Positions 2,146 through 45,370 of a stretch of DNA of 64,000 bases are shown piece by piece. A program made the translations under genes and the position numbers. How positions within the stretch are numbered: the stretch's first letter is position 1; each line of letters starts with the position of its first letter. The stretch is from Membranipora membranacea (taxonomy: Eukaryota; Bryozoa; Gymnolaemata; Cheilostomatida; Membraniporidae). Below the pieces are notes generated by a model, which saw only the letters and a program-made list of their open reading frames with translations, ran no database searches and was not told the DNA's origin. The stretch covers positions 11,763,493-11,827,492 of the forward strand of contig OU612071.1 of assembly GCA_914767715.1 (NCBI GenBank). Direction: 5' to 3'.

Positions 2146-2353
2146 ATGGCTATTATAAGACGCGGTCAAGATGTCGTCTCTATCAAAAACAAAACTAAGA
2201 TGCTGCTTGCTGGCTCGACAATGCTGCTTATCACCGCGTTCATCGTTGTAGGAGCCTGCTATGCGCTTGTGCTGTCCCAACTGGAAGAGCTAAAAGATAA
2301 GATGGCCGACATGGAGGGAACAAAACGCCAGAATGCTGACTTTGAAGACTTAG
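2146..2353 (+). CDS. Exon 1: cytoplasmic tail and membrane anchor (copy A)
   Basis: The exon encodes a start MAIIRRGQDVV, basic residues before the membrane, then a hydrophobic run of about 24 residues (LLAGSTMLLITAFIVVGACY) and a charged helical stretch rich in E, K and D. It ends in phase 1 at a GTAAGA donor at 2354. The tail is short and has no obvious signalling motif. The same exon is present in copy B with an identical protein sequence. Confidence 0.85.
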
Positions 2354-5300
2354 GTAAGATAATACCACAATCACAGTCTAGAGATAAACAAATACCCTAG
2401 TTGTAGAGGCTTACACCAGAGAGTGCTTGGGGCTTGAACAATCAACCTTGAAAGCTCCAAAAGAATTCGAACCTACAACTCTAGCGGCAATGATCGCCTG
2501 GCAGTGAAAAGCAAGCGCGCTAACCGATTGCGCAATCTCCCCATCCAGATGGCGCAGTCGGTTAGGGTGCTTATGGGAGTTAATATTAGGAAGACTTGAT
2601 TGAAGACATGTTTGGGTAACTTCATGCAAGCCTGCACTAAGTGTCAGCTAGGCGGTAGCTTAGATTAATAATTGACCACTCTAGGGTAGAATTCTTCTGA
2701 TCTTACGACTGCTGTATATTATATTACATTGAATGCTATTTATTTCATATTCAAAGACTAGCTTTGAGGCGGCTCTTTCGTAAGACATCATATTCTCCAT
2801 ATTCTATTCCATCATGTGAGCGATTTCCAGCTTTAGAATCTTAATATTGAGGGAGTTATGGTCTCTCAAACTTTCAAGGAGATGGCTGTCAATCGGCATT
2901 TAGAATCCCCACACTAAAAATAGATTCACAAACAAAACATAATGGGTGCAAGTGGGTGTTGTACCCAGGTCCTTGGGATCGGCAGGCAACGCCACTACCA
3001 TCGGACCACGACGTCCGGCTATATGAGGCCATTGATAATATAGCGCAGTGGTAGCGGCGTTGCCTGCTGGTCAATAAGACCTTGGTTTGTGACCCACATG
3101 CACCCGTATTATTATGATATAAATGAGACATAGTGTGAGGATTTTCAATGCCGATCGAGAATAAGATGTGATACAAAACAGCAGCCTCGAAGTAAGTCTT
3201 TAAGCGATCATCGATGCTAAAATATGCTGAAAAATGATTGAAGTTTGTAATAATGATGATACATACATGATTATCATTATTAGTACTTGGTACAGTAGAA
3301 ACAGCGCTGAAGTGGAACTCTCAACTTTGTTGAAATCCAGCTTAAAATTTTATGTGTGTTAAGTATATGCATAGTATTTAGGACTTTTTCCAGGTTTAAC
3401 TTGGTCCAAGTCAAATTTGATTCCATCCAAGACTAGGCCATCACAGGATTCCACCCATAAAATTCTGCATTTATATCTCAGTTCTTGAATTCAATCATAA
3501 AATTGGGTAGTTTGACAAAATTATATACTGAAATCCATAGGATAGTGGTTAAGTTCGTGGACTGCTGTGCACTAGGTCCTTGGTTCGAGTCCAGGTGCGA
3601 GCAGTATTTTGCCCATCACTCTAGTAGTTGAGACCCCTAAGGATGTAGACCTCTGACCCGACTTGACCCTAACATCACCCGAACACAGAAACCCAAAACC
3701 CGACCCGTTGACTCGACCCTGAATACAACACTTATCAGCATAGATTGAAAGGAAGCAAATAAGCTGAAGTGATGAAGCAGAAAAAGTTGTATAAGTTTTC
3801 TAGACTCTAGATGGATAATGTTTGATTCAGTGTTCCTGCATTTTGAAGGTTTTCAATTAGAATGGGCATTGCCTTTTTATTAAAAAGTACCACTATCACC
3901 CGCTGAAAATTATCGCTCATTTGGTCTTTCGATATGTTCCCGAACTCTGAAGGTTATACTTCCTTCCAATGACTAATCTATTTGTGAGCTAGACCCTATC
4001 GATAATATAACGATTTTGGCGGTTTTTAACTGAAATTCTCCCCTTGATTGATTGATTTATTGATTGGTTGATTATTTGATCGATTGATCGATTTTATTCC
4101 TATTGCTAACATGAAATATGTTGTGAAATACTGGGCCCACAATATTAAAAATGATTGGACGGTCCCATACTATTGGGGAGCTCCCTGCAAATAGAATTGT
4201 GTCTTCTCATATTTCCAGTTCATTATTAGCTTCTCAAACATTTTTAATTGTTGACATCTCTGTGTATCACATCATGTTAACATACATGCTTTTAACTATA
4301 ATAAATATTATGTTATTGTTGTCAAGTTCATGAATGTTAGAATCCCATTACTCAGACAGTTAGTGGTTCTCAATCAAACACGTTTGCATCGCTTCCCCCC
4401 CCCCCCCCCCACCCTGGACTTAGATTGAGTGAGAACAATTGTTGGGGACAAATAGTCAGCAACCCATTACTAACAGCTCAATATTTACCAAGGGCTGGAA
4501 GTTTGTCAAGTTGTTGAAATGTCTATCATTGTCTTATTTATTGAAGGTGGTACGACCAATGAGCCACACGGAGGCACTTTTGATGTGAATGCTCGTATTG
4601 ACACCCTGTCCCGTGCCCAAAAGGAAAACCATCAGATGCTACGACGGTTCGGTGAGAGCTAGTTAACTCTGCACATATCTCAGTTTAAAATTCATTATTC
4701 ATCATTATTGTGTAGTGTCCGTAATAACAGGGTAGTTTCAACACCAACGAATTGAATCATGTATGGCTCAAGTATGTAATTGCCTTTTTACATTGAAAAG
4801 AGCTAGAAGGCAAATGTCTCGTATATCACAGGTTATGCAAAAATTGATTAAAAGCACACTGAAGTCCAGTAGCAAAACAATTAGGAATATTTTTAGGCAC
4901 TACAGGCACAGTCCCATGTTTTATCTTCCTTTACCTTCTTTCTCAGAGGGACAGAACATTTGGTTAGATACCAAGAGTTGTAGATATTGGAGCTGTATTT
5001 GAGCCACACTAGCCCTGTCACGGGCCCACTTATTTTGTTTAAGGCTTGAGCTTAATGTTGGTTAATTAAAAAATTTTATTTTGTTTGTAGAGCGGAGTTT
5101 GGCCGCAATTACAAAGAGGCAAAAGAAGAATGACGATGAAATTCAAAATCTCAGTGAGTGTTTGCTATATCATTCCACTCTCAGGACATCATCAGTTCCT
5201 GAATTCTATAGCAACAAGTTCAATACTGTTGTAATGTCACGCCAAAAGTCTACATGAATCATTGAATAATGCATTATTAGCAATCAAGCAGCAGTGTTGT

Positions 5301-8300: not shown

Positions 8301-11300
8301 TAGCAATTAGCATAATGGAAAAAGAAACTTCTCTTCAACTTCTCAGTTGAAATATATATAATATATAATATATTTTATATGTTTTATTTGATTTCATATT
8401 TTTGAAGAATACCCAACCAAACAACCAGTAGAAAACACGACTTTTCAAGGGCCTCAAGGAGTGTATCATCAAATGTCCCAGCAACTCGGTGAGAGCTCTC
8501 AAACTCATAAACTTCTGCACATATCTCAGTTCTAGAAACCAATCATGATTGGGTAGTTAAACATAGATTAGCATAGATCGAAAGGAAGCAAAAAGGCTTC
8601 AATGGTGTAGCAGAAAAATTATAAAAGTTTTCTAGAGTGTAGATAATATTTGGTTCGGTGTTCCTGCATTCTAGGGGGTCTTCCAATAAGAATGAGCATT
8701 GCATTTATAGAGAAAAGTATCACTATCACCCGCTGAAAATTATCACTCACTTGGTCTTTCAATTAGACAAAATCGCTCCCGAATCGCTAACTCATAATGT
8801 ATATAGCACCATCAGTGAGCGAGCGATTTCTGAGCGACACCCCTAGCAGGTATCACTCGCTAATGATAGGATAGGATAGGATTTATTTGTTCCTCCATAT
8901 ATCAGAAAGTATGATGCCTTGAGTGAAAACAATTGTAAAAGGTGAATTACGATTAGAAATAAATTGAAAAGAAAAATTAGACTGGAGCTCTACATGAAAG
9001 TGAGGCAAAAAAGTTATCTCAAAAAGTAAGACAGAACTATTTGCTAGCAATTAGCATATTGGAAAAAGAAACTTCTCTTCAACTTCTCAGTCCTACTGCG
9101 AAATAATATCATATTTTGTATTTTACTTATATTTTTGAAGGATACCCAACCAAGCAACCAGTTGGAGACACAACTGTTCAAGGACCTCAAGGAGTGAATC
9201 ATCAAATGTCCCAGCAACTCGGTGAGATCTCACAAACTAATAAAGTTCTGCACATATCTCAGTTCTAGAAACCAATCATGATTGGGTAGTTAAACATAGA
9301 TTAGTATAGATTGAAAGGAAGCAAAAAAGCTTCAATGGTGGAGCAGAAAAATTATAGAAGTTTTCTAAAGTCTAGATAATAACGTTTGGTTCAGTGTTCC
9401 TGCATTCTGGGGATCTTTCAATTAGAATGAGCATTGCCTTTTTGATATAAAGTATCACATCACCCGCTGGAAATTATCACTCACTTGGTCTTTCAATTAG
9501 ACAAATGCGAACTCTGAGATTTATAGTTCCTTGCAATGGCTAAGCTATTTGTGAGCTATACCCTAGCTATTAGATAGCGACATTCAATTCCATATCCTCA
9601 CCATTAGCTATCTTTTGCCAAACAATGGGTATGCAAAAAATAACCAGTCGCTAGTAGCATTCTAAGAAAGCCCAAATTAGCGATACTGAAGGGATTTCAT
9701 CGCTGCTTGCAACTTTGTAACCAAGTCAATTTCCCAGGCTAAATTATTTTTGCTAGTAGGGACAGCCAATCAAAAGAACATCAGACAAGTCCCTGTGCTG
9801 AGTGTTCTTCTTCATGATGTTATGATACTATTTCCGTTCCACGAGAAGAATTTAATTCAGTGGATAGCGATTTTGGCTGTTTTTAACTGGAATCCCCCTT
9901 GGTCAGTACCATTCTATTGGTGAACTTCCTAGGATTGTGTACTATCATAGGAGGCGACTCGAAATTGAGCAATTTGGATTGATCCAACTTTCACGGGGAC
10001 AAGAAGTATTAAAGTGAAGGCTTTTTGGTATCATTCTGGAGTTCTCAGTCTAATTTAGAAAACTGCCATAAAGTTTATTCACAACATAATGCCCATGTCA
10101 CCTCAAAGGTGAGATTTGAATGTTCTAAAAATAAAGTTTTTGGTACAAAAAAAAAAGATTTTTTCTGCCCTTATAACACTCTCCTTGTCTTGGCAATCAG
10201 TCCCAAGACATGACAAATAAAAAAGGTCAACTGAATGAGAAGTTGCCCTCCCTCAACCATCTAAGGAAAACTTATTGGTATGGAAAACTGAGAAGTCCTG
10301 TTCACAGCCCATGATAGGCTTTTATGTTATTCACATCATCTTTCCTTCAATCTGATATCCTGTCAGCATGCCAGTATTGAAAGAAAAAAGTCTGCTCAAA
10401 TCATCACTTTTGGTTACAAATGAAGCACCCATTTTTTTCCCCTAAAATATGTTACATTATAAGAGAGAAAAAAGGTACTATTTTAATAACAGTTTATACA
10501 AAATAGTACCTTTTTAGTACCTTCCAATCTTAAGTCCGGCCAAGTTTGAGTGAAAATCAGTTGAAACTGGGCCACTTGCTGTTAATAAACTTCATAGCAG
10601 TTTTCTAAATTAGACTGAGAAGGCTAGAATGATACCAAAAACCTCATTCCTTCACAGTCACTTTAAGGAAATGTATTTTTATTCACCAATACTAAAGGGG
10701 TTGTCTTGTTTTTATGATTCATGGTGTAAGTAATAGAGAACAGAGAGAAATATGATCACTATTGAACTAACTTTTTCTTGATTGCAGCAATGTCGCTTGA
10801 CAGTTTGGGAACCAAGATCACTGAACTCACAAAAGAATTTGGCCGCCAAGCAACTGACATTGCCAATCTCAGAACAGATTTAAGGGATGCCAAAGCTGCA
10901 ATGATCGAAGACTTCGCATTGCTAAATGAATCTCTTAATTTAGAGATCTCAGTACTACACAGCATGTTGGACGGAATGGATAACGCCTCTGATAGCATGT
11001 TGCTCCTCAAATCTAAGGTACATCCTAGCACACCCTCGATGGAGATGATTGACCTACTACATACCAAGGTTGAGAATATGAGTACTGCAATAGTTGAGGT
11101 TCAAGACTTCCTCCATAATGCTACAGCACTCATGACATCATTCAATGAATTGGATTCAACGGACAGAAATCTATTGTATACACAACTAAACAACTTAGAA
11201 AATCATCTAAATGGTACAAGCCGCGATCAGCAGAATATGCGAGAAAACATCAATTCCTTGTACACGCAGTTAGGTAACCTGGAAAAATCCACACCTACGG

Positions 11301-13628
11301 CAATGGATGAAAGCTTGCAAAACTTCTCCAATAGCTTCAACCATACGCTTGAAAACATTGAATCAAAGATGAACAAACACATTGAGATGATGGCCTCAAT
11401 GAATGACACGGCCTCGGCTGAGAGAAACTCCTTGTACATACAGTTAAACAAACTGGACAAGTCAACAGCGATGGCAATGGCTGAAAACTTGCAAAACGTC
11501 TCAACTATCCTGAACCAATCCCTAGAAAATATTGAATCAAACATGAACCAACATATCGAGATGATGGCATCAATGAACGATTCCGCCTCGGCTGAGAGGA
11601 GCTCCTTGTACACTGAGTTAGAAAACCTGGATAAGTCCACTACAATGGCAATGGCTGAAAACTTGCAAAACATCTCAACTATCCTTAACCATACGTTTGA
11701 AAAAATTGAATCAAACATGAACCAACACATCGAGATGATGGCCTCAATGAACGATTCGGCCTCAGCTGAGAGGATCTCCTTGTACGCACAGTTAGAAAAC
11801 CTGGATGAGTCAACAACCACGGCAATCAATGAAACCTCCCAACACATCTCGAACATCAACATGACGATTAATGAACAGACAGCAATGATAGAGTTGATGA
11901 AAGTGACAAATACTATGGCGAAAGCCTACTCCTGTGAGTGAATTGAGTCATTCGTATACACTTATGTTATGTATTATAAAGAGGAGCCATAGGGCATATG
12001 TAGGCGCAAGTATTTCATTCTTGTTAGGACAATTTTAGCCGGAAGAGCATCCAGGACCATGTGCTCCTGTTTACCAAATTTAGTCATTGGGTCATTATCA
12101 AGTTTTTATTATGCATTGCTGGCCCCAAGTGCTCATGTTATACACTAGCTTACGCTCCAAAAGTGTGTCATTTTGTCACGATATCAAATCAATCATCTTC
12201 TAGCAGTCCATTGGGTCAACACTATAATGGTAAGAAAGAGGGATGTCAATCATTGTGCTAAAAAAATATTGAGAACGTTTTTCTGCTCATGCAATGCAAT
12301 CAAGACTTGATTGATAACGTCCAATATTTGGTGCCAATAACCATGACATTTTGCTAAAAGACCTTTCATAGAGCCATGATTCTTGGCTAGATGCTAAAGT
12401 GGACTATGATCTCATTAGTCATCACTGAGGTTGGGCACCTTAACTCTCAATGTTCAATGTTGATGCTGTGAGAATTATTATAATCTTCAATGCATTTTTA
12501 CAACACTAAATCATCAACTTATCAATACTACATATTTAATAATAATTATAATGTTTTTTTAAGGTGGTAAATGTACCAATGAGTCAAGCGCTTGCACACT
12601 TGGAGACTATTCAAAACTCACCTGCCAGAGGGGCTTTCTTAAGTCTCATGATGGCTTTGATGATCCAAGTACATACTCCTCCTTTGGTCAAATTAGAACA
12701 AATCTGAAGAATCCGGGATTTAAAGGACTCAAGATTACACTTCACCAGTTTGATGTTAGTTGAGTATTTATATACATGAAGACTTTCATGGTAGATTGAT
12801 TCTTGAATGGTTCATCATTTTGGCAGGAAAATGACCCACGCTGCTGCTCTGTGTATGATATATAGTTGATATACTGGTAGAAACTGATTGTCTCGTTATA
12901 ATTCATACCATTCTAAGTCCATTTCTCCAGATGCACTTGTTAATAGTTATCCACAAAATTGAGTCTTAGCTCAGTTTAATATAATTCCAGATAAATAAGG
13001 GCATTCTGATCAATAAGAAAGTTTCTACTGTTGATAAATACACAAATTGTTCCCAATTATTTACGCATTCAATATTTTGACTGTTAAAATCTAATATGTG
13101 CTTCGTTTCCATATGTTAGGATATAGGAGAATTTGTAGCGCAGTTCATATGGTGAACAAAGCATCCCTACCAAAGCACACATTAATTTGTTGTGCTATAA
13201 CCCCACAATGATTATTTGCTTGAATGGGAAATAGTGGTATGAATTTCACCTTGATTTAATTGTGAGAGAATGAGTGTCATATTGATTTTGTTGAGTTGAT
13301 TTTTTTTGGATGCATTTTGCGTTATATTGTTACACATTCTCTTTTATAGTCAAACCCTCCATCTAACGACGATTGCGATTCAGATTTTCTCTATATATCC
13401 GTATCTAGAAAGAACTTTAAGCACTGTGGCACTGCAATAGTTGATTTAGTACTATACTTTGATGTATCAGCGGTAGTTGAGGGATTCATACAGATAAGTT
13501 TTTTTGCTGTAACTAACAACCAATATAGCGGTTTTATGATTGAGTTCGATTTCCAATTAATGCCTTTTCCTGAATCAGCTTACAAATCAACCGAGAATGA
13601 TGTGGTATATTTTATTGAGAGTACATGA
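2146..13628 (+). CDS. Type II membrane protein with coiled-coil stalk and CUB-like domain (copy A, 11 coding exons)
   Basis: Gene model: 2146-2353, 4547-4651, 5091-5153, 5689-5769, 7030-7110, 7664-7744, 8408-8488, 9141-9221, 10788-11933, 12564-12754, 13350-13628. The exons total 2397 nt, 798 codons plus TGA, with no internal stop; every intron starts GT and ends AG. Introns are phase 1 except the last (phase 0). Order in the protein: basic cytoplasmic tail (about residues 1-19), one membrane segment (about 20-43), linker exons, five 27-residue repeats, a long helical stalk rich in N-glycosylation sequons, then a CUB-like domain. The lack of a signal peptide and the early membrane anchor imply type II topology. 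I do not recognise a named ortholog. A role as a cell-surface binding receptor is inference from architecture. The start is the only ATG before the membrane segment; a further 5'-UTR exon is possible because a CAG acceptor-like site lies near 2054. Confidence 0.85.
2460..2545 (-). repeat. tRNA-derived SINE-like head
   Basis: On the minus strand an A-box-like segment (TTGCGCAATCGGTTAGCGCG) is followed by a B-box-like GTAGGTTCGAATTC. No paired acceptor stem is visible, so this is a SINE remnant and not a tRNA gene. A second A-box-like segment on the plus strand (GATGGCGCAGTCGGTTAGGG) starts head-to-head beside it at 2547. Copy B has it at 34635-34720. Confidence 0.55.
2950..3110. repeat. Head-to-head pair of tRNA-like SINE fragments
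   Basis: The plus strand at 3041-3094 has TAGCGCAGTGGTAGCGGCG then a weak B box (GGTTTGTGACCC). The minus strand at 2950-3010 has GGTAGTGGCGTTGCCTGCC then CTGGGTACAACACCC. The two heads share the segment GGCGTTGCCTGC and diverge from each other in opposite orientation. Counterpart in copy B near 35110-35270. Confidence 0.5.
3530..3735 (+). repeat. tRNA-derived SINE (family 1)
   Basis: A-box-like ATAGTGGTTAAGTTCGTGG at 3542-3560 and B box TGGTTCGAGTCCAGG near 3580, followed by a body with repeated CCCGAC words. Further copies lie at 35712-35917 and, only in copy B, at 40594-40785. In each case it is followed by a shared module starting CAGCATAGATTGAAAGG (or a close variant) that leads into a MITE. 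Confidence 0.6.
3847..4043 (+). mobile_element. Degenerate member of the GGTCTTTCAATTAGA MITE family
   Basis: Recognisable inner words (TTTCAATTAGAATG, ACTATCACCCGCTGAAAATTATC, CGATTTTGGC) in family order, but the G/C-rich ends are worn. It sits in the intron before exon 2 and is followed by a GATT microsatellite. Copy B equivalent about 36030-36226. Confidence 0.5.
4045..4100 (+). repeat. (GATT)n-type microsatellite
   Basis: Imperfect GATT/GATC tandem words in the intron between exons 1 and 2. It is slightly longer in copy B (about 36230-36285). Confidence 0.7.
4386..4413 (+). repeat. Poly-C tract
   Basis: A homopolymer C run in the intron before exon 2. Its length differs in copy B (about 36583-36597), as expected for a slippage-prone tract. 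Confidence 0.75.
4547..4651 (+). CDS. Exon 2: linker (copy A)
   Basis: A 105-nt exon, phase 1 at both ends, with acceptor TTGAAG before 4547 and donor GTGAGA at 4652. It encodes a start GGTTNEPHGGTFDV followed by a charged helical segment (ARIDTLSRAQKENHQ). Copy B changes one arginine to leucine. It can be skipped or duplicated without breaking frame. Confidence 0.8.
5091..5153 (+). CDS. Exon 3: short helical linker (copy A)
   Basis: A 63-nt symmetric phase 1 exon with acceptor TTTGTAG and donor GTGAGT. It encodes 21 residues including the charged run TKRQKKNDDEIQNL, which suits a continued helix. It is too short to find as a standalone reading frame; support is the splice sites, the frame, and conservation in copy B (37277-37339). 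Confidence 0.75.
5689..5769 (+). CDS. Repeat exon 4a, 27 residues (copy A)
   Basis: First of five 81-nt phase 1 exons, each spliced from a TTTTTGAAG acceptor to an ACTCG|GTGAGA donor. It encodes a module beginning YPSKQPVEDTTFQG and ending MSQQL. The surrounding intron sequence is shared between exons, showing that exon and flanks were copied together. Confidence 0.8.
5845..6082 (+). mobile_element. MITE family member in the 4a-4b intron (copy A)
   Basis: Full-length but with worn ends (GGGGTATCCTTTGATTAG at the left, AATTGAAAGGCCCC at the right). It carries the inner landmarks GATGCGCTACTAAAGCAAGT, ATCACATCGCTCAAAATTAT and the palindromic GCTCACTGAGTGAGC-type words. Copy B has it at 38031-38267. 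Confidence 0.7.
6093..6456. mobile_element. 364-bp inverted-repeat element (ends ACCCTATAGGAGTTTA), copy A
   Basis: A perfect 16-bp terminal inverted repeat: ACCCTATAGGAGTTTA at 6093-6108 and its complement at 6441-6456. The interior has several AATTTCGCTA-like words and, at 6212-6292, a minus-strand SINE head. There is no coding capacity, so it is a non-autonomous DNA element. In copy B the left ~195 bp is missing and only the right part remains. Confidence 0.75.
6212..6292 (-). repeat. tRNA-like SINE head inside the 364-bp element
   Basis: The minus strand reads GGCAGTGTGGTGTAGTGTTC (A-box-like) and then CTGGGTTTGAATCCCAGC (B-box-like) at the expected spacing. It is absent from copy B. Confidence 0.5.
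7030..7110 (+). CDS. Repeat exon 4b, 27 residues (copy A)
   Basis: The second 81-nt repeat exon. The module begins YPTKQPVGDTTIQGHQG and contains NRQKSQQL instead of NHQMSQQL. The split codon gives alanine. Both splice sites are intact. Copy B keeps this divergent version at 39019-39099. Confidence 0.78.
7664..7744 (+). CDS. Repeat exon 4c, 27 residues (copy A)
   Basis: The third 81-nt repeat exon, module YPTKQPVENTTFQGPQG with VYHQMSQQL at the end. It carries an NTT sequon. It is identical to exon 4d because both lie in consecutive 744-bp units. It has no counterpart in copy B. Confidence 0.78.
8408..8488 (+). CDS. Repeat exon 4d, 27 residues (copy A)
   Basis: The fourth 81-nt repeat exon, base-for-base the same as exon 4c and exactly 744 bp downstream, flanks included. 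This points to a very recent tandem duplication, or to an assembly stutter. It is absent from copy B. Confidence 0.72.
9141..9221 (+). CDS. Repeat exon 4e, 27 residues (copy A)
   Basis: The fifth 81-nt repeat exon, module YPTKQPVGDTTVQGPQG ending NHQMSQQL, phase 1 at both ends. It splices to the long stalk exon. Copy B has the equivalent at 39643-39723, with a glycine-to-aspartate change. Confidence 0.78.
9411..9901 (+). mobile_element. MITE family member split by unrelated sequence (copy A)
   Basis: The left half begins GGGGATCTTTCAATTAGAAT and the right half ends GCGATTTTGGCTGTTTTTAA then CCCCC. About 250 bp of unrelated sequence separates them. Copy B equivalent is about 40896-41387. Confidence 0.5.
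10009..10666. mobile_element. 658-bp MITE with ~75-bp terminal inverted repeats and TTAA ends (copy A)
   Basis: The left end TTAAAGTGAAGG with TTTTTGGTATCATTCT and CTCAGTCTAATTTAGAAAAC is mirrored at the right by GTTTTCTAAATTAGACTGAG, AGAATGATACCAAAAA and CACTTTAA. TTAA at both borders fits a TTAA target duplication, as in piggyBac- or Kolobok-type elements (family inference). It has no transposase. It sits in the intron just before the stalk exon and contains a 16-bp-stem hairpin at 10469-10515. Confidence 0.78.
10788..11933 (+). CDS. Exon 5: coiled-coil stalk with 58-residue repeats (copy A)
   Basis: A 1146-nt exon, acceptor TTGATTGCAG and donor TCCT|GTGAGT. The first half is charged and helical (SLGTKITELTKEFGRQATDI onward). 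From 11255 it contains three full 58-residue repeats, each starting SLYxQLxxL and ending in a block like MMASMNDSASAER, followed by a partial fourth. I count many N-x-S/T sequons (NES, NAS, NMS, NAT, NGT, NHT, NDT, NQS and others), so the stalk should be heavily glycosylated if extracellular. Leucine and methionine spacing suggests a coiled coil and probable oligomerisation. Copy B has the same length with about 11 amino-acid changes. Confidence 0.9.
11255..11776 (+). repeat. Three in-frame 174-bp repeats within the stalk exon (copy A)
   Basis: Units 11255-11428, 11429-11602 and 11603-11776 are each 174 bp (58 codons), with a degenerate partial unit after them. The most conserved part of each unit encodes HIEMMASMNDxASAER. 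Repeat length is a multiple of three, so unit gain or loss preserves the frame. Confidence 0.85.
12564..12754 (+). CDS. Exon 6: first half of CUB-like domain (copy A)
   Basis: A 191-nt exon starting in phase 1 (acceptor TTTTTAAG) and ending in phase 0 after GAT with donor GTTAGT. It encodes CGGKCTNESSACTLGDY, then a second cysteine-containing patch (KLTCQRGF) and a strand-like stretch ending LKITLHQFD. This resembles the first half of a CUB domain, where a Gly-rich start and an I-x-L-x-F-x-x-F-D strand are typical. Cysteine spacing is non-canonical: four cysteines fall close together. Confidence 0.75.
13350..13628 (+). CDS. Exon 7: second half of CUB-like domain and stop (copy A)
   Basis: A 279-nt terminal exon after acceptor TTTTATAG, read in phase 0 to TGA. 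CUB-like features: a cysteine followed by SDFLYISV, then KHCG, then strands around LVLYFDVSA and EGFIQI, then YSGFMIEFDFQL, like the final G-F-x-x-x-F/Y strand of CUB domains. It diverges strongly from copy B in patches while those core strands are invariant. The frame stays open in both copies despite about 13% nucleotide difference, which supports it being coding. Confidence 0.78.
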   Translation, partial: SNPPSNDDCDSDFLYISVSRKNFKHCGTAIVDLVLYFDVSAVVEGFIQISFFAVTNNQYSGFMIEFDFQLMPFPESAYKSTENDVVYFIEST

Positions 13629-13663
13629 GTATTATGATGATGATGATTTTTAATTTTTTTTAG

Positions 13664-13783
13664 TTCAATTTCAAATTAATGGCTTTAACTGAATCAGCTT
13701 ACAATGCAACCACAGATGGTGTGGAATATTATTTGGATTATGCTGTTTATTTTTTTGAGTATTATGAAACTTATTATTCATGA
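13664..13783 (+). other. Duplicate of the exon 7 3' end: possible alternative last exon (copy A)
   Basis: After a TTTTTTTTAG acceptor-like site, a 40-codon frame (FNFKLMALTESAYNATTDGV and onward, ending TGA) parallels the end of exon 7 (FDFQLMPFPESAYKSTEND). It looks like a small tandem duplication of the exon's 3' part. The frame is also open in copy B (45406-45525). It may be an alternative terminal exon or 3'-UTR debris. Confidence 0.45.
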
Positions 13784-13856
13784 ACTTTTTTTCCATGTGA
13801 AAAACCAATATGTCTTATTTAATTTTAACTGTCTTATTTTGATTTATAAGAAATTG

Positions 13857-13862
13857 AATAAA
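13857..13862 (+). promoter_or_regulatory. Candidate polyadenylation signal AATAAA (copy A gene)
   Basis: An AATAAA hexamer lies about 230 nt downstream of the exon 7 stop, in AT-rich sequence on the gene strand. It is conserved in copy B at 45599-45604. Other AATAAA words occur in this AT-rich DNA, so the assignment rests on position. Confidence 0.45.
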
Positions 13863-16800
13863 ATCTTATTTCAAAGCTTTCATTAATTATTGCTTATGAT
13901 GTCAGTACAGAGTTAATGCATAAGGATATAAAATTATATGGGAAGCCTTGGCGATTAGAAGACAGCTATATTATGAATGTTTATTGGGTCAGGTTTCAGA
14001 ACTCAAAATTTCATAAAATTATGCATGTAGAAATAGAAGGAAAGCCAACCCCTGAGTTCATCTCTTTATCTGGAAAGGTTTTGCATGATGTTGTGAGCTC
14101 TCAACAAATCTTATTCCGACAACAAACAATATTGATCTGATGGGTGTAAGGACAGTCTGAGCCAATTATTGAGTAACTCTGTGATAGATCCTCTCTTGTG
14201 TGGCTCTGGCGCTGGTCCAAGCGATCAATTGATTCATTTAAAATCGAAAGCGACTGACAAAAGTCTGGCTCAGATCAGGGAGAATGGAAAATTTTTCCTG
14301 CTCAGATTCACAGCTAGCCCTTAAAAGCGTCCGGGATGGCGATCGCCATCCCGAATGCTTTTAAGGGCTGATTGTGCTCAGATCGAAGTCTTCTGCCAGT
14401 GTAGTGGTAGTTTTTTCCCTGTTTTACAACATAAAAACTACAGTATAGCAGAAGATCCTTCAATTATGAGGTAGGCCTATCACTCTCTTTTGTCTAAGGA
14501 CATCAATTTGTTTTCGCAATTGCACGAGCTGTGCTGTCCACCAGAAAAAAGACATCATGAATCATACCTTGTGCTAAATTGTCTGAACAATTTATTCATA
14601 ATTGCTTGCAGAACTTTCGTAGGACTAAAGAGTTATCGAGCCTCTGATGCAATACTGTTGGCTGGCTTTTCCCTCCAGCCACAGGTGTGTTTTCAACCTG
14701 GCGCTAACGGTTTTCAAGCGGATTGTGGTTCTGTACAGGGGCGTAGAGAGTTACCCCAAACATATCTGTGGTTGAATTTGTAACCTAATAATAAGCTAAA
14801 CACGAGATCAAGCTTGATTCATTTGCTAAAATAGTTCATTGGTTGCACCCCACCCCCCCTCCCTACACTGGTCACACTGCAGGCAAAAATGATGGGGCTT
14901 GACCAGTAGTTGGGGGCCCACTCCAAACACATCTTGCTGTTCATGATAAGCTGCAGAACTCAATATTTGCCTTTCGATGGCCACTGAGAACGGCGGGATA
15001 GAGGCTTATGGATGTTAATTTTTTTACATTGAGAAGTAGGCGGGTTTTTTGAGAAGTAGGTTGAAGTATGATTCCAGGCTTGATGAAGAGGACTTGCTTG
15101 GTGTGGTGTAGAATCATGCAATATACATTCTCCTTCGTTTATTTTGTGATTCATAGCAATATTATCTGCATATTTGACAAATAGATGGACAGAAGTCATT
15201 TGTGAACACATTCCAGGGAGACGGCCTAAGAACTGTCCCATGGTACTCCTGGGGTTATATCCTTGAGAAAGGACATGTATCATCTGATCTTTACACAATG
15301 CTGGCAATTGTTCAGAACTCACAATCACACTTAACTTTTTAATTGATGCTCCACTACATGAGCTGTCAGATAATAAGACTCCAGATAAAATCATCTATAC
15401 TTGCCGGTTTTGCTGAGGCGCATTTCAGGAATTGATAGCAGTTGGTGCTAACTCAACGTCATGATTATTTTTATTCGATTGCGCTCTACGAGAGCTATCA
15501 TACTAAACGACCTCTTATTATAAAATGTTAATAAATAGTTTACTTGTAATAAATATAGGTATAGTGATTTGTTCTTGATATATTCTTGTGCAAAAATTAT
15601 TAAGATTTTATAACTTTAATAGCACAATGCAACTGTATTGCAACATCATCACCACTTAAACTGAAAATTGAAAATGTGAGCAGACGTGAAAAATACAAAA
15701 ATACGTCTAGTCTTAATTTTTACAAGTACAGACAATTCCCAACTTTAAACCTACACAATAACGCAAAGATGCAAAAGAAATATCGGTCATAGATGCAATC
15801 AGAGAAAAAGCTGTATCAACAACTGAACGCTGTGTAGAGAAAAATTTGATGCTGCACACCGCATATCAGCTATGAAGGAGGGAAAGAAATATCATTGACT
15901 TAAATTATTTGTCCTGATGTCGATAACCTTATAAGGCTGTCAGTCTAAGAAGAGTTACGCTGCTTGAGTATTTAGGCATTGAAGTCTGAATCGTCATAGC
16001 TACAAAATAAACAGCAAGGTTGATAGTAAGACCATAAGTCTTTATCTGTAGATATAACTTAATGAAGTATGAACCAACAAGTTATTTACTAACAACAAGG
16101 TTAACACTTGAGGTACCAATGCTATCATTTGACCACATACGTGTTACTCCTGCCCAATCCGGAATGAGTTGATTCTTAACATTCATAATATATCCATGTT
16201 TATGATAACAATATGGGTTTTTGGCTTGAGAAGCATTGATTTCAATGTATTACCTAGTTTCCAGAACAGTACAGCCATTATAGCTTTAATACAAGTTTGT
16301 TGTCAGAGTGCTTACCTTACTGGATCTCGTGTCATCATGTCCTTGCATCACTTTCACCTGCTTCGGTTTTGCTGTAATCAGATAAAATCAATTATAGATG
16401 ATGACTTTTGGTCAATTAGAAATTTGAGACACACATCTCAGATACACCCACACAGCCTCCCCATTTCACCAGAATTATATATATTACATATTAATTTTGG
16501 TAGGTCATAGGTCTGGGGACTGTTGTACGGAACCAAAGATATGATGGGTTACTTTAAAAAGAATAAACTGGAGAAGTCTGTTTGTGAGCTGACAGTTTTA
16601 ACAGACTCACTATAACATAGCTTAGTTTTGTTTTTTTAGTTTTACAGGCATCAGGCTAGCATCTATAACTTGTCTCACCTTTTGTTCAATTTGGATTTAT
16701 GATTTTTACACACTAAATTTGCAGCCAAAATCATTATCATGACTTCAAGTCCAAGTGGATTTGATTTCACATTCACTCCGGAGAGGCATTTTTGATCAGG

Positions 16801-19100
16801 CGGTGAGCGATCAGGAGGATTTTAAAATTAAAAACTGCCCGTAACTGAGTGATCATGACATGTTAGGGAGCTCGTTACCAAATCATGCAGTCATTGTTAA
16901 AATACACAGAATATGCAATTTGGGAAAAAATTTTCCCATTTGGCAGACCAAATAAGCGATGATTTTGAGCAAAGTGCGAGCGATGATTTGCTTTAAAAAG
17001 CCTCGCTCTTTATAATTGAACGACCATATAAGCTCTCTTGCTAAAGAGTATGCAGATAGAACGGTCATTTTGCAGTTTTTATGGACAATTAAGGACTTCT
17101 GTAAAGATACTCATCAGCTTAACAAAAACAAACTAAAATTCATTATGTAACAAACCCATGTATTATGTATTCAAATTAACAGTTCTTTTGTTTCACCAGC
17201 TTAAGCTGGAGACTCGTTTCAACTCCAAACTAGTTGTCACTGCTCTCATCTGCAGGATTAGGTTCAGTCCAATTTCGGGGGACAATAGAGTGATTTACTC
17301 TTCAAACAGGGGATCCAGGGTGCAATATTGTGCCAGGAGTGTATTTGTTGCAGCTTCTGGCTACCTCCCAACATCTTTATGGGGTGTTGGCCGTCCGTGA
17401 TTGGTCTGGGGGGATTTGGGCCCGCCCTGGTCTTTGTGTTGGTGTGTTCCCTGTATACCTGGTAAAACTTATCCTGTTTCAGTGTTCTTTTATCAGTCAG
17501 TGCACTCAGCGCATTAGCAATTGAACTCAGACAGTTTTGAAAGTATATCGAAGTCTATTTTACAAAATCAGTTTAGAGGAAAGAAGGCAAAAGGTACGAA
17601 TATTAATCTTATCATTATACGGCAACCTGCATTCTTCATTCAAGGATTAATTATATTATATATACCTTAAATTGTGTAAAGGCTCAATTTGACACCTTAT
17701 CATTGTACGTTTTGGAAATAACACTTTACTTTAAAAGTTGTTAAGTAAGAGTACAAAGTTGACTTTTTGAGAACTGTGTTATGCGTTTATATTATTGTTT
17801 AATAATGACATATGACATGTAGTCATTGTTTGTGTAAATCTTTTATAGATTTCACGGTAGTTATCTCAGTATACATTAATTGACAATAGTCTGAGTTACG
17901 TCAGTAAAATCCCAAGTCAAAATTCCCCTAAGCTGAACGTCTAATGATAGGGAATCATTAAAACTTCCCTTGGGGAATTAAGATCAGAGACTGCCAAAAT
18001 CACTATCCAATCGTGGAGCTGAGCATGCGGGTCCAGCTAGTGATCTCAGTTCCCAATGGCCGACTATTTGATGAATATATGATTATGTACATTCTGAATA
18101 AACTATTTGGGAGCAATAGGACAAATATTGATAAATGAATGCCAAGACTGGGCAATCCAGAACAAGATGCGCCTAAACATCGCTCTGATGAAAATATCAT
18201 GGTCCAACACCTCTCTTCACTTCCCCATTGCTTAACATGCAAATTATGTTGACTTCTCACCTCCAAAAGCCTGCTTCAGGTTCTTTCAATTCTCTAACCA
18301 GACCACTCAAATGGACTGCTTCTGCTCTGTCATACTTGAGAGTATCGGATGGAAACTGATTGTAAGATTTTCTTCGGCGCTCCCACAAACACAGCAAGTG
18401 CATTTTTACAGGTTTACCAGCTAATTTTGCCTAAACTGACTCGTCTGCATAAAGCGCCCCAAATTGATTTTGCTAAAATCATTTAAAACCTCTCTCACCA
18501 AAATTTCAATTGCAAATCCACCAGGCAACATTTTCATGCCTCAATATCACTGACCGCAGTATTATCAACTTGCCTAGGTCCTGTTTTGACATCAGTCATA
18601 CTAATCATTTTAATTTCGAGAAGGGGTGCAACAGGTTGACCTAATTTAATTACAGGTGTATTACCTAATGGTGAGCATGGCGACTTCCAATGACATAAAT
18701 ATGCTGTCCTAGAAGGCTAGAGCATGCATCCCACAAGGAACCGGGATTTTATGACAATCGGGGCATTACAGACATATCCAGACATGTTTTAGACACAGGC
18801 ACTCGATGATTATTCGCTTACTTTTTCCGCCATCTGTTTTCAGTAGTTTCGGAAATATGACCATCTGATAATTGCACTCTCGGTAACAACGTGCCCTCAT
18901 CCAGATACCTAGTTGAAAAAAGGTAATACTGGGGTCAACAGCAGACTCTAGTCACACTACCATGTATGTTTCAATATCTATTTTGCCTTTAACGGATAAG
19001 GAGTTGCCTGCTCTTGATACCCGAGCAAGCAACTCCCGCTTACAGGTAACTGTGGGTTGCCTGAGCAATGAAACTGATGTTTTATTGGCGTTGACCAGTT
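13863..19100. other. Intergenic region without a recognisable gene (copy A)
   Basis: Several reading frames of 60-144 codons occur (for example 13916-14140 plus, 14490-14783 plus, 14960-15394 minus, 16169-16510 plus). I recognise none, and none has splice or motif support. Conservation in copy B means little here because that whole stretch is nearly identical between copies. It contains the 54-bp palindrome at 14316 and worn MITE-like pieces near 16790-17060 and 17990-18200. Counterpart: about 45605-50900. Confidence 0.5.
14316..14369. repeat. 54-bp near-perfect palindrome (copy A)
   Basis: The arms AGCCCTTAAAAGC and GCTTTTAAGGGCT enclose CGGGATGGCGATCGCCATCCCG, centred at 14342/14343. Only a 3-nt spacer on each side (GTC and AAT) fails to pair. 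Copy B has the same sequence at 46058-46111. Confidence 0.9.
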
Positions 19101-19206
19101 TTTATTCATTCTTAACGGGTGTAGTCACATACACAAAGTAATAAATTATATATATATACAAATATATATAAATGAAGACTGACATCTGCTGGTTTTCTGT
19201 TTGCAG

Positions 19207-34320: not shown

Positions 34321-34528
34321 ATGGCTATTATAAGACGCGGTCAAGATGTCGTCTCTATCAAAAACAAAACTAAGATGCTGCTTGCTGGCTCGACAATGCT
34401 GCTTATCACCGCGTTCATCGTCGTAGGAGCCTGCTATGCGCTTGTGCTGTCCCAACTGGAAGAGCTAAAAGATAAGATGGCCGACATGGAGGGAACAAAA
34501 CGCCAGAATGCTGACTTTGAAGACTTAG
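34321..34528 (+). CDS. Exon 1: cytoplasmic tail and membrane anchor (copy B)
   Basis: The exon encodes the same protein sequence as copy A exon 1 (basic tail, one hydrophobic segment, charged start of the stalk), with donor GTAAGA. Upstream sequence is also shared, except that about 380 bp present at 1523-1903 of copy A is missing near 34086. Confidence 0.83.
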
Positions 34529-40500: not shown

Positions 40501-43500
40501 GTGTTGTAAGCCGTTCATAATAATCACAGCAAAAACATGACTAATAGCTATATGTTTTATCATCCCATAGTCTCTATTTCCAAAATTATATACTGAAATC
40601 CATAGCATAGTAGTTAAGTTCGTGGACTGCTGTGCACTAGGTCCTCGGTTCGAGTCCAGGTGCGAGCTATATTTTGCCCATCACTCTAGTAGTTTAGACC
40701 CCTAAGGATGTAGACCTCTGACCCGACTTGACCCTAACGTGACCCAAAACCCGACCCGTTGACTCAACCCTGAATACAACACTAATCAGTATAGATTGAA
40801 AGGAAGCAAAAAAGCTTCAATGGTGGAGCAGAAAAATTGTAAAAGTTTTCTAGAGTCTAGATAAATAACGTTTGGTTCAGTGTTCCTGCATTCTGGGGAT
40901 CTTTCAATTAGAATGAGCATTGCCTTTTTGATATAAAGTATCACATCACCCGCTGGAAATTATCACTCACTTGGTCTTTCAATTAGACAAATGCGAACTC
41001 TGAGATTTATAGTTCCTTGCAATGGCTAAGCTATTTGTGAGCTATACCCTAGCTATTAGATAGCGACATTCAATTCCATATCCTCACCATTAGCTATCTT
41101 TTGCCAAACAATGGGTATGCAAAAAATAACCAGTCGCTAGTAGCATTCTAAGAAAGCCCAAATTAGCGATACTGAAGGGATTTCATCGCTGTTTGCAACT
41201 TTGTAACCAAGTCAATTTCCCAGGCTAAATTATTTTTGCTAGTAGGGACAGCCAATCAAAAGAACATCAGACAAGTCCCTGTGCTGAGTGTTCTTCTTCA
41301 TGATGTTATGATACTATTTCCGTTCCACGAGAAGAATTTAATTCAGTGGATAGCGATTTTGGCTGTTTTTAACTGGAATCCCCCTTGGTCAGTACCATTC
41401 TATTGGTGAACTTCCTAGGATTGTGTACTATCATAGGAGGCGACTCGAAATTGAGCAATTTGGATTGATCCAACTTTCACGGGGACAAGAAGTATTAAAG
41501 TGAAGGCTTTTTGGTATCATTCTGGAGTTCTCAGTCTAATTTAGAAAACTGCCATAAAGTTTATTTACAACATAATGCCCATGTCACCTCAAAGGTAAGA
41601 TTTGAATGTTCTAAAAATAAAGTTTTTGGTACAAAAAAAAAAGATTTTTTCTGCCCTTATAACACTCTCCTTGTCTTGGCAATCAGTCCCAAGACATGAC
41701 AAATAAAAAAGGTCAACTGAATGAGAAGTTGCCCTCCCTCAACCATCTAAGGAAAACTTATTGGTATGGAAAACTGAGAAGTCCTGTTCAAAGCCCATGA
41801 TAGGCTTTTATGTTATTCACATCATCTTTCCTTCAATCTGATATCCTGTCAGCATGCCAGTATTGAAAGAAAAAAGTCTGCTCAAATCATCACTTTTGGT
41901 TACAAATGAAGCACCCATTTTTTTTCCCCTAAAATATGTTACATTATAAGAGAGAAAAAAGGTACTATTTTAATAACAGTTTATACAAAATAGTACCTTT
42001 TTAGTACCTTCCAATCTTAAGTTCGGCCAAGTTTGAGTGAAAATCAGTTGAAACTGGGCCACTTGCTGTTAATAAACCTTATAGCAGTTTTCTAAATTAG
42101 ACTGAGAAGGCTAGAATGATACCAAAAACCTCATTCCTTCACAGTCACTTTAAGGAAATGTATTTTTATTCACCAATACTAAAGGGGTTGTCTTGTTTTN
42201 NNNNNNNNNNNNNNNNNNNNNNNNNNNNNNNNNNNNNNNNNNNNNNNNNNNNNNNNNNNNNNNNNNNNNNNNNNNNNNNNNNNNNNNNNNNNNNNNNNNN
42301 NNNNNNNNNNNNNNNNNNNNNNNNNNNNNNNNNNNNNNNNNNNNNNNNNNNNNNNNNNNNNNNNNNNNNNNNNNNNNNNNNNNNNNNNNNNNNNNNNNNT
42401 ATGATTCATGGTGTAAGTAATAGAGAACAGAGAGAAATATGATCACTATTGAACTAACTTTTTCTTGATTGCAGCAATGTCGCTTGACAGTTTGGGAACC
42501 AAGATCACTGAACTCACAAAAGAATTTGGCCGCCAAGCAACTGACATTGCCAATCTCAGAACAGATTTAAGGGATGCCAAAGCTGCAATGATCGAAGACT
42601 TCGCATTGCTAAATGAATCTCTTAATTTAGAGATCTCAGTACTACACAGCATGTTGGACGGAATGGATAACGCCTCTGATAGCATGTTGCTCCTCAAATC
42701 TAAGGTACATCCTAGCACACCCTCGATGGAGATGATTGACCTACTACATACCAAGGTTGAGAATATGAGCACTGCAATAGTTGAGGTTCAAGACTTCCTC
42801 CATAATGCTACAGCACTCATGACATCATTCAATGAATTGGATTCAACGGACAGAAATCTATTGTATACACAACTAAACAACTTAGAAAATCATCTAAATG
42901 GTACAAGCCGCGATCAGCAGAATATGCGAGAAAACATCAATTCCTTGTACACGCAGTTAGGTAACCTGGAAAAATCCACACCTACGGCAATGGATGAAAG
43001 CTTGCAAAACTTCTCGCATAGCTTCAACCATACGCTTGAAAACATTGAATCAAAGATGAACCAACACATTGAGATGATGGCCTCAATGAATGACACGGCC
43101 TCGGCTGAGAGAAACTCCTTGTACATACAGTTAAACAAACTGGACAAGTCAACAACGATGGCAATAGCTGAAAACTTGCAAAACGTCTCAACTATCCTGA
43201 ACCAATCCCTAGAAAACATTGAATCAAACATGAACCAACATATCGAGATGATGGCATCAATGAACGATTCCGCCTCGGCTGAGAGGAGCTCCTTGTACAC
43301 TGAGTTAGAAAACCTGGATAAGTCCACTACAATGGCAATGGCTGAAAACTTGCAAAACATCTCAACTATCTTTAACCATACGCTAGAAAAAATTGAATCA
43401 AACATGAACCAACACATCGAGATGATGGCCTCAATGAACGATTCGGCCTCAGCTGAGAGGATCTCCTTGTACGCACAGTTAGAAAACCTGGATAAGTCAA

Positions 43501-45370
43501 CAACCACGGCAATCAATGAAACCTCCCAACACATCTCGAACATCAACATGACAATTAATGAGCAGGCAGCAATGATAGATTTGATGAAAGTGTCAAATAC
43601 TATGGTGAAAGCCTACTCCTGTGAGTGAATTGAGTCATTCATATACACTTAGGTTATATATTATAAAGAGCAGCCATAGGGCATATGTAGGCGCAAGTAT
43701 TTCATTCTTGTTAGGACAATTTTAGCCGGAAGAGCATTCAGGACCATGTGCTCCTGTTTACCAAATTTAGTCATTGGGTCATTATCAAGTTTTTATTATG
43801 CATTGCTGGCCCCAAGTACTCATGTTAAACACTAGCTTACGCTCCAAAAGTGTGTCATTTTGTCACGATATCAAATCAATCATCTTCTAGCAGTCCATTG
43901 TGTCGAAACTATAATGGTAAGGGATGTCGATCATTGCGCTCGATATTTACTGAGAACTTTGTGTGTTTTTCTGCTCATGCAATGCAATCAAGACTTTATT
44001 GATAATGTCCAATAACCATGACCTTTTGCTAAAAGACCTTTCAATGAGCGATGATTCTTGGAATAGATGCTAAAGTGGGTTATGATCTCATCACTGAGGT
44101 TGGGCACCTTAACTCTATTGTGCTATTCTCAGGCACTTTCCCATATGTGGTCTTTATGGCGATCCCTCATGTTGATGCTCAGTGTTGATGCTGTGAAATT
44201 TGCGATAATCTTCAATGCCTTTCTACAACACTAAATCATCAACTTATCAATACTACATAGGGTGAATCATTACTTAATAAAAATTATAATTTTTTTTTAA
44301 GGTGGTAAGTGTACCAATGAGTCAAGCGCTTGCACACTTGGAGACTATTCAGAACTCACCTGCCAGAGGGGCTTTTTTAAGTCTCATGATGGCTTTGATG
44401 ATGGAAGTACATACACCTCCTTTGGTCAAATTAAAACAAATCTGAAGAATCCGGGATTTAAAGGACTCAAGATTACACTTCACCAGTTTGATGTTAGTTG
44501 AGTATATATATACATGAAGACTTTCATGGTAGATTGATTCTTGAATGGTTCATCATTTTGGCAGGAAAATGACCCACGCTGCTGCTCTGTGTATGATATA
44601 TAGTTGATATTCTGGTAGAAACTGATTGTCTCGTTATAATTCATACCATTCTAAGTCCATTTCTCCAGATGCACATGTTAATAGTTATCCACAAAATTGA
44701 GTCTTAGCTCAGTTTAATATAATTCCAGATAAATAAGGGACATTCTGATCAATAAGAAAGTTTCTACTGTTGATAAATACACAAATTGTTCCCAATTATT
44801 TCTGCATTCAATATTTTGACTGTTAAAATCTAATATGTGCTACGTTTCCATATGTTAGAATATAGGAGAATTTGTAGTGCAGTTCATATGGTGAAAAAAG
44901 CATCCCTGCCAAAGCAGACATTAATTTGTTGTGCTATAACCCCACAATGATAATTTGCTCGAATGGGCAATAGTGGCATGAATTTCACCTTGATTTAATT
45001 GTGAGAGAATGAGTGTCATATTGATTTAGTTGAGTTGATTTTATTTTTTTGATGCATTTTGCGTTATATTGTTACACATTCTCTTTTATAGTCAAACCCT
45101 CCAACTAACGACGCATGCGAATCAGATGAAATCGCAATAACCGTATCTGAAAAGAACTTTAAGCACTGTGGCACTGCAATTAGTGATTTAGTATTATACT
45201 TTGATGTATCAGCGATAGGTGAAGGATTCATACAGATAAGGTTTTTGGGTCTAACTGACAACGTATATTCCGGTTTTATGATTGAGTTCGATTTCCAATT
45301 AATGCCTTTTCCTGAATCAGCTTACAAATCAACCGAGAATGATGTGGTAGTTTTTTATGTGGGTCCATGA
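34321..45370 (+). CDS. Type II membrane protein with coiled-coil stalk and CUB-like domain (copy B, 9 coding exons)
   Basis: Gene model: 34321-34528, 36733-36837, 37277-37339, 37875-37955, 39019-39099, 39643-39723, 42475-43620, 44302-44492, 45092-45370. The exons total 2235 nt, 744 codons plus TGA, with all frames and GT-AG borders intact. It has three 27-residue repeat exons where copy A has five, so it is 54 residues shorter. The membrane exon is identical to copy A, the stalk nearly so, and the CUB-like domain is strongly changed. The intron before the stalk exon contains the 200-N gap, so an unseen exon there cannot be excluded, although the flanking bases abut in copy A. Confidence 0.83.
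35712..35917 (+). repeat. tRNA-derived SINE (family 1), copy B
   Basis: Same element as 3530-3735, with A- and B-box-like segments preserved and the CCCGAC-rich body. Confidence 0.58.
36733..36837 (+). CDS. Exon 2: linker (copy B)
   Basis: The 105-nt phase 1 linker exon, start GGTTNEPHGGTFDV. One residue differs from copy A (TLSLAQ instead of TLSRAQ). Splice sites are intact. Confidence 0.78.
37277..37339 (+). CDS. Exon 3: short helical linker (copy B)
   Basis: The 63-nt exon encoding the charged 21-residue linker. Its first full codon is CAG instead of CGG, giving QSLAAITKRQ where copy A has RSLAAITKRQ. The donor is GTGAGG. Confidence 0.73.
37875..37955 (+). CDS. Repeat exon 4a, 27 residues (copy B)
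   Basis: Equivalent of 5689-5769 and identical in protein (YPSKQPVEDTTFQG onward). Same acceptor and donor as in copy A. Confidence 0.78.
38031..38267 (+). mobile_element. MITE family member in the 4a-4b intron (copy B)
   Basis: Counterpart of 5845-6082 with a few substitutions. It directly precedes the deletion that removed half of the neighbouring CCCTATAGG element. Confidence 0.68.
38281..38449. mobile_element. Half-deleted relic of the 364-bp element (copy B)
   Basis: Retains the right portion, ending TAAACTCCTATAGGGT, but the left inverted repeat and SINE are gone. Copy B joins GATTAGCATAGAT directly to TGCATGCATATGG. Confidence 0.7.
39019..39099 (+). CDS. Repeat exon 4b, 27 residues (copy B)
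   Basis: Equivalent of 7030-7110. It encodes YPTKQPVGDTTVQGHLG, with Ile-to-Val and Gln-to-Leu changes, ending NRQKSQQL. Splice sites are intact. Confidence 0.76.
39643..39723 (+). CDS. Repeat exon 4e, 27 residues (copy B)
   Basis: Equivalent of 9141-9221. It encodes YPTKQPVGDTTVQDPQG, with a Gly-to-Asp change. The 4c and 4d exons of copy A have no counterpart between this exon and 4b. Confidence 0.76.
39911..40152 (+). mobile_element. Full-length MITE family member found only in copy B
   Basis: Begins GGGGGGTCTTTCAATTAGAA and ends AAAAGACCCCC, 242 bp, with all the inner landmarks. It lies in the copy-B-only segment beside a SINE. Confidence 0.75.
40594..40785 (+). repeat. tRNA-derived SINE (family 1), extra member in copy B
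   Basis: The same A box and B box (CGGTTCGAGTCCAGG) and CCCGACCCGTTGACTC-type body. It lies in a segment of about 1 kb (39798-40790) that has no equivalent at this position in copy A, together with a full-length MITE at 39911-40152. Confidence 0.58.
41495..42153. mobile_element. TTAA-bordered MITE (copy B)
   Basis: Counterpart of 10009-10666 with both inverted repeats intact. It ends 46 bp before the N gap. Confidence 0.76.
42200..42399. other. Assembly gap of exactly 200 N
   Basis: A run of N flanked by CTTGTTTT and TATGATTCATGG. In copy A the same flanks are contiguous (about 10705), so relative to copy A essentially no sequence is missing. The round number suggests a placeholder gap. Confidence 0.95.
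42475..43620 (+). CDS. Exon 5: coiled-coil stalk with 58-residue repeats (copy B)
   Basis: The same 1146-nt length and repeat pattern as copy A, with about 11 residue changes scattered over 382 (for example FSNSF to FSHSF and MNKHIE to MNQHIE). No indels. The 58-residue units begin at 42942. Confidence 0.88.
44302..44492 (+). CDS. Exon 6: first half of CUB-like domain (copy B)
   Basis: A 191-nt exon equivalent to 12564-12754. All cysteines are kept. Five of about 63 residues differ from copy A (for example SKLTC to SELTC, GFLKS to GFFKS, DDPST to DDGST), with few silent changes. Confidence 0.75.
45092..45370 (+). CDS. Exon 7: second half of CUB-like domain and stop (copy B)
   Basis: Same length (279 nt) and reading frame as copy A. 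The cysteine followed by ESDEIAITV, the KHCG motif, the LVLYFDVSA strand and YSGFMIEFDFQL are all present. About 22 of 92 residues differ from copy A, concentrated between the two cysteines, in the loop after EGFIQI, and at the C terminus (VFYVGP instead of YFIEST). Confidence 0.78.
   Translation, partial: SNPPTNDACESDEIAITVSEKNFKHCGTAISDLVLYFDVSAIGEGFIQIRFLGLTDNVYSGFMIEFDFQLMPFPESAYKSTENDVVVFYVGP

Follow-up and report, generated by a model that had tools for sequence, protein, structure and literature searches.

Organization of the locus

In this work we analyzed a stretch of 64,000 nucleotides (the window) from chromosome 7 of the bryozoan Membranipora membranacea (C7:11763493-11827492), which carries two copies of a gene whose last exon, here called exon B, is hypervariable between copies. 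In copy 1 this exon lies at 13350..13628 on the plus strand, where it forms one open frame that includes the stop codon and is immediately preceded by the acceptor TTTTATAG; in copy 2 it occupies 45092..45370 on the same strand. Judging from the comparisons given below, a divergent CUB domain has its second half in exon B, and the first half would be encoded by exon A (12564..12754 in copy 1 and 44302..44492 in copy 2, both on the plus strand), which is variable too between some copies. At the 5' end of the gene, exon 1 (2146..2353 in copy 1; 34321..34528 in copy 2, plus strand, with the same encoded residues) was read by eye as a short cytoplasmic tail and a membrane anchor, so that the product is probably a stalked membrane protein of type II topology. 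The large stalk exon (10790..11933 and 42477..43620, plus strand) has in copy 1 381 codons and one base, with internal repeats of 174 bases (58 residues). A scan for splice consensus and frame predicted further small stalk exons in copy 1, all on the plus strand, at 4547..4651 and 5091..5153, together with one that is repeated five times through unit duplications (5689-5769, 7030-7110, 7664-7744, 8408-8488 and 9141-9221). The stalk seems to lengthen both by the 58-residue internal repeats (10790-11933) and by tandem duplication of the small exon (5689-9221); it may have coiled-coil character, and its Pfam matches are helical families, all below their cut-offs.

The genome searched comprised 339,339,785 bases in 18 contigs, with 28,508,536 bases in C7; the accessible part of the genome note describes an assembly of 339,374,674 bases in 21 scaffolds, in which chromosome 7 measures 28.51 Mb and the mitochondrial genome 14.7 kb (PMC10290214). 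The contig that carries COX1, C18, has 14,741 bases, and its COX1 has AGA/AGG codons at positions judged by eye to be conserved serines, which excludes the ascidian code. With exon B of copy 1 as the query at least 47 matches were found, 45 on C7 and two on C1; the better of the two on C1, at C1:35454490-35454816 on the minus strand, is 82% identical over query positions 73-258. In the 331 kb of C7 that were read, exons A and B occur as 30 pairs spread from 11.66 to 12.48 Mb (about 0.8 Mb), the last three array copies being on the minus strand, and in 29 of the 30 copies exon B is open to its stop behind an intact acceptor. According to their sequence the copies belong to nine types: A (four copies with copy 1 included, plus a truncated fifth), B (two), C (four, among them copy 2), D (four), E (one), F (three), Z (four), S (six) and S' (one). 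An identical exon B is common to several copies across hundreds of kilobases.

Differences between copies 1 and 2

A first-pass annotation of the window had estimated by eye that the exons B of copies 1 and 2 differ at about 37 bases without indel or stop, with some 22 changed residues and about four silent changes. A script count returned the same figures: 37 of 279 bases differ in a gap-free alignment with no internal stop, 22 of 92 codons are amino-acid changing, and four are silent (codons 30, 35, 44 and 60). More than one base is altered in 8 of the 22 residue-changing codons. The changes had been described as clustered in three places, with core strands identical; residues differ only in codons 5-31, 42-58 and 87-92. 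Exon 1, which had been called unchanged, is so at the protein level, all residues being identical, and not in its DNA, where 1 of 208 bases differs, silently. The divergence of about 3% ascribed to the stalk is correct for the protein sequence of the large stalk exon (11 of 381 residues, 2.9%), in which 17 of 1143 bases differ. Exon A shows six nonsynonymous changes and one synonymous change, the intron within the CUB domain differs at 17 of 595 positions, and the 3' flank at 4 of 400.

Nonsynonymous divergence in exon B (32/218) stands against 21/995 in the intron and 3' flank together (Fisher p=2e-12), and the rates of nonsynonymous (dN) and synonymous (dS) change are 0.166 and 0.083, a ratio of 2.0. 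Fourfold degenerate sites behave differently: none of 24 differs between copies 1 and 2, one of 24 between types C and E, none of 28 between A and E, and none of 19 among the four lineages A, B, C and E. At the nonsynonymous rate 0/24 would be expected with P=0.02 and 0/19 with P=0.009. In the young pair formed by the two type B copies (B and B'), all six changes of exon B are nonsynonymous, and 3 of 601 bases are changed in the intron; the nonsynonymous excess is significant against the intron (p=0.016) and against intron and 3' flank (p=0.043).

Codon-model tests of selection

Site models were fitted by a purpose-written codon likelihood of the GY94 type with site classes. Types A, B, C and E comprise 11 copies, and the main exon B set held their 8 distinct sequences, each of the other three being identical to one of these. 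The truncated copy g11869 was excluded from all exon B alignments, and the frameshifted copy g11690 from that of exon A.

Once further paralogs were added, as had been proposed, the diversifying selection suspected from the first pair was supported: the site models reject neutrality for exon B of types A, B, C and E. The comparison of M1a with M2a gave a statistic of 32.84 (p=7e-8), with about 43% of the codons at an omega near 6.5, and it was accompanied by M7/M8 (p=4e-8) and M8a/M8 (p=1e-8). In 60 neutral simulations on the fitted M1a tree the statistic reached at most 6.07. Each half of the exon carries the signal (5', p=5e-4; 3', p=2e-4), as do a star tree of the four lineages (p=5e-8), a set of 12 exons B that includes type D (p=6e-13) and the set of all types (p=3e-16, overall omega 0.89), which consisted of 29 rows, 22 of them distinct, after columns with less than 70% occupancy were dropped. 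The significance comes from the further paralogs and not from the pair of copies 1 and 2 alone. In the exon A control M1a/M2a gave p=0.0035, with 1.6% of the sites in the positive class.

The types differ in how exon B evolves. The group formed by S, S', Z and F, tested on 10 of its 14 copies so that every distinct sequence was included, is constrained (omega 0.59, p=0.009 against 1), and the variable group A-E has an omega of 1.66 (p=0.05 against 1). When types A, B, C and E are each represented by one copy, the mean ratio of exon to intron divergence is 5.18, versus 0.17 for the six S copies; within types it is 0.92 in F, 1.17 in D (three of the four copies) and 0.72 in C.

Distribution of the changes in the CUB domain

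Variability along exon B was counted on four sequences, one from each of the types A, B, C and E. In the first variable block (codons 1-31, 13350..13442, plus strand) 17 of 31 codons are amino-acid variable, whereas codons 32-40 show no residue change. A second variable block (codons 41-60, 13470..13529, plus strand), with 13 variable codons out of 20, contains the loop that in an alignment with MASP-2 corresponds to the third of the ligands by which some CUB domains bind calcium. It is followed by an invariant block (codons 61-80, 13530..13589, plus strand; 0 of 20 variable) and by a variable C terminus (codons 81-92, 13590..13625, plus strand), where 5 of the 11 codons compared vary. In the predicted strand at codons 47-52 the residues I, I and F are fixed and the intervening Q, S and F are variable. 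Changes in the buried core had been named as an observation that would speak against selection on binding loops; sites of the positive class are rarer at hydrophobic positions (8/34) than elsewhere (29/58, p=0.016). This pattern suggests change on an exposed face with the core held, and the variable sites may well be exposed.

The assignment as a divergent CUB domain was examined in several comparisons. Profile similarity to MASP-2 extends over profile positions 21-132 of 157, with a whole-sequence E of 0.0011 and an i-Evalue of 0.19 for the best stretch, and C1r follows with E=0.028. Three of 11 members match Pfam PF00431 at E<=10, the best at 1.2e-6, and a type Z and a type S sequence both score 13.3 bits, where the cut-off is 21.4. 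The top row among the structural matches, none of which has E<=0.001, is a MASP-1/3 chain. When the CUB region of a single composite model was searched against a set of 5.8 billion proteins, 40 candidates came back, none with E<=1. According to the available portion of PMC6372009, the calcium-binding subset of CUB domains has three conserved acidic calcium ligands. In the variable copies the first of these is replaced, and the acidic third ligand is also lost except in types E and B, so that the calcium site has probably been lost from the variable copies.

The six S copies (C7:11897199-12287809) sit between variable copies and retain the calcium-site residues; their exons B are 0-1 base apart and their introns differ by about 0.9% on average.

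Movement of exons and other features of the window

Mosaic structure was examined in 15 of the 30 copies (types A-E); the exon A strings compared, like those of the exon A site models, carried one extra starting glycine, the acceptor placing the start of exon A at 12564. In g12231 an exon A two bases from that of copy 2 is joined to a type D exon B, and in g11977 the exon A of copy 1 is joined to a type E exon B. Copy g12333 has an unlike exon A, with 19 columns that differ from copy 1, although its stalk matches that of copy 1 at all 1143 bases and its 595-base intron and exon B are likewise identical to those of copy 1. These mosaics indicate that exons move between copies. Of the 70 columns of exon B that vary in the four lineages, 57 are private, with a single lineage set apart, nine are divided two against two and four follow other patterns; as most are private, new variation in exon B would arise mainly by substitution.

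An open remnant of the 3' part of exon B, preceded by an acceptor-like ttttttttag, lies 3' of exon B at 13664-13783 and 45406-45525, and tblastn located it also near copies of types A, B, C, D, E and F. As an alternative C-terminal exon the segment 13664-13783 was discarded, given that inspection by eye found no in-frame splice to it from exon B; it is likely the relic of a partial exon duplication, or else an unused alternative end.

Elsewhere in the window, an open frame of 611 amino acids at 27648-29480 on the minus strand contains a reverse transcriptase domain (RVT_1, E 6e-39), and our guess is that it belongs to an element without long terminal repeats. A 41-base minisatellite occurs at 25591-26432 (20.5 copies) and at 59816-60411 (14.5 copies), and another of 45 bases at 23058-23366 (6.9 copies) and 57325-57588 (5.9 copies). 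The Rfam scan of the window yielded no family that reached its gathering score, and a search of window positions 12450-20000 for plasmid matches gave none.

Discussion

We consider it probable, from sequence comparisons, that these genes form a germline-diversified cluster of non-self recognition receptors. As expected for a receptor family of this kind, a tandem array coincides with site-specific positive selection in the ectodomain. The product would be a stalked surface protein, probably of type II, with a terminal CUB domain to which exon B contributes one half, and at least 30 paralogs of the gene lie in tandem. Within one subset of these copies, residues of the loops around the ancestral calcium site of the CUB domain, and of one face of the neighbouring strands, would have been replaced under positive diversifying selection, with the core blocks held. 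Duplication and gene conversion would keep the remainder of the gene alike and would move exons A and B between copies, giving new combinations, and a second subset, type S, retains a nearly unchanged CUB domain. The most likely use of such proteins would be the recognition of non-self surfaces, either microbial, which appears more likely, or of other colonies. Immunity and colony allorecognition would both fit; we lean to microbial targets because many copies share the same exon.

Several results weigh against this interpretation. For the single pair of copies 1 and 2, nonsynonymous (32/218) and synonymous (4/57) divergence do not differ significantly (p=0.09), and the silent differences are slightly above those of the flanks (p=0.04), so exon B may be somewhat older than its flanks. 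A dN/dS near or below 1 with more sequences had been set out in advance as contrary evidence; the site class at omega 6.5 goes the other way, but for the whole exon B omega is 1.82, not significantly above 1 (p=0.067). The site models assume a single tree, which recombination between copies violates. The stalk, tested on the 8 copies for which it was complete (6 of them distinct, and with the g11718 stop codon treated as missing), is not strongly constrained, with an omega of 0.79 and a weak M2a signal (p=0.044); the constrained group of S, S', Z and F still gives p=0.014 for M1a/M2a, and the exon/intron ratio within type Z is 1.49. The 8 of 34 hydrophobic positions noted above do vary. As to the fold, the CUB region of copy 1 itself, alone or with the stalk, has no Pfam CUB match; the structure model of exon B alone has a predicted local distance difference test score (pLDDT) of 67, and its Foldseek search of 'pdb' gave 8 matches at E<=10 and none at E<=0.001. 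Finally, at least four of the 30 copies carry lesions: a stop in the stalk (g11718), a 5' truncation of exon B (g11869), a frameshift in exon A (g11690) and a donor changed from GT to GA (g12154).

The excess of differences could instead reflect age, if exon B of copy 2, or of copy 1, had been overwritten by conversion from an old divergent paralog, as the first-pass annotation had offered as an alternative. The mosaic copies g12231, g11977 and g12333 and the slightly raised silent divergence favour this idea, and exon shuffling is real; yet fourfold sites, of which 0/24 and 0/19 differ, should have diverged in an old donor, 57 of the 70 variable columns are private with only nine two against two, and age alone gives no site class with omega above 1. 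Moreover, of the at least 47 matches in a genome-wide search made with the copy 1 exon, and not with the one of copy 2, those found outside the array are the two on C1. Conversion from a divergent paralog is thus disfavoured as the main cause and we regard it as improbable; as the sole cause it was rejected, like local hypermutation, on account of the unchanged fourfold sites. Relaxed constraint or decay of redundant copies into pseudogenes, to which the lesions would point, is very improbable, since 29 of 30 exons B are open behind an intact acceptor, the core blocks are invariant among A, B, C and E, fourfold sites would change too, and the omega near 1 that decay predicts is rejected by M8a/M8. 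An equally remote explanation is an assembly artefact in which haplotypes are strung together as false tandem copies. Many stretches are only a few per cent apart, which would be in the allelic range of marine invertebrates, but two haplotypes cannot account for thirty copies that fall into nine types, and the genome note, as far as it is accessible, describes a HiFi and Hi-C assembly whose curation removed haplotypic duplications (PMC10290214). Some near-identical neighbouring copies could be artefacts.

Two further readings accept the selection and change its object. Gamete recognition proteins, acting between sperm and egg or in self-incompatibility, often evolve fast, and the array might be a family of this sort driven by sexual conflict. 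Some proteins of eggs and sperm, EBR1 and ovochymase among them, have CUB domains, according to the portion of PMC9265791 available; proteins of that type do not resemble a stalked membrane protein with 30 tandem gene copies, and we hold this reading to be quite improbable. Somewhat less doubtful, though still unlikely as judged from these data, is that the array is an allorecognition locus that governs colony fusion and rejection rather than a cluster of pathogen receptors. Discrimination between self and non-self has been reported for bryozoan colonies, Membranipora included, and the allorecognition genes of Hydractinia are clustered. In Botryllus, polymorphic surface proteins have codons under selection, as stated in the accessible parts of PMC12065747 and PMC3549757. 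Against it, the presence of an identical exon B in several distant copies suits a germline repertoire of non-self receptors at least equally well.

The closest relatives by profile, the CUB domains of MASP-2, MASP-1/3 and C1r, have calcium-site loops that align with the variable blocks of the array. These domains are parts of secreted proteases, whereas the array protein would bear a single CUB domain that caps a stalked membrane protein. In architecture the mammalian Ly49 or C-type-lectin-like natural killer cluster is similar, with type II topology, a coiled stalk, one binding domain and a tandem array shaped by birth-and-death and conversion, but its fold is that of a lectin and not CUB. 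The fester protein of Botryllus has domains of another kind than CUB. It resembles the array product, as fuhc does, in that it is found on the surface, belongs to a colonial animal and has some codons under selection (excerpts of PMC12065747 and PMC3549757), and fuhc-tm differs in being type I with three immunoglobulin domains; where the letters 'cub' occur in PMC12065747, they belong to journal DOIs. In the snail Biomphalaria, clustered and hyperdiverse genes for single-pass transmembrane proteins are tied to parasite resistance (PMC12297450, in part); those are described as polymorphic loci, whereas the array here consists of paralogs of one haplotype, and the word 'cub' has 0 matches in the PMC12297450 text. 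A diversified receptor array based on CUB domains is not described by any title in the open-licence literature searched, and the word allorecognition is absent from the accessible main text of the genome note of M. membranacea (PMC10290214).

Given that the animal is colonial, we keep as the boldest reading, and as a doubtful one, that the array would be the molecular basis of self/non-self recognition in bryozoan colonies, with constrained S copies set among hypervariable copies of types A-E, perhaps as their partners, and with exons A and B shuffled to create new specificities. We know of no genes assigned to colony recognition in bryozoans, although the phenomenon was observed decades ago, and the array offers defined exons for work on it. 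In addition, one domain is present in a single array in both constrained and hypervariable form, which helps to separate selection from mutation and duplication.

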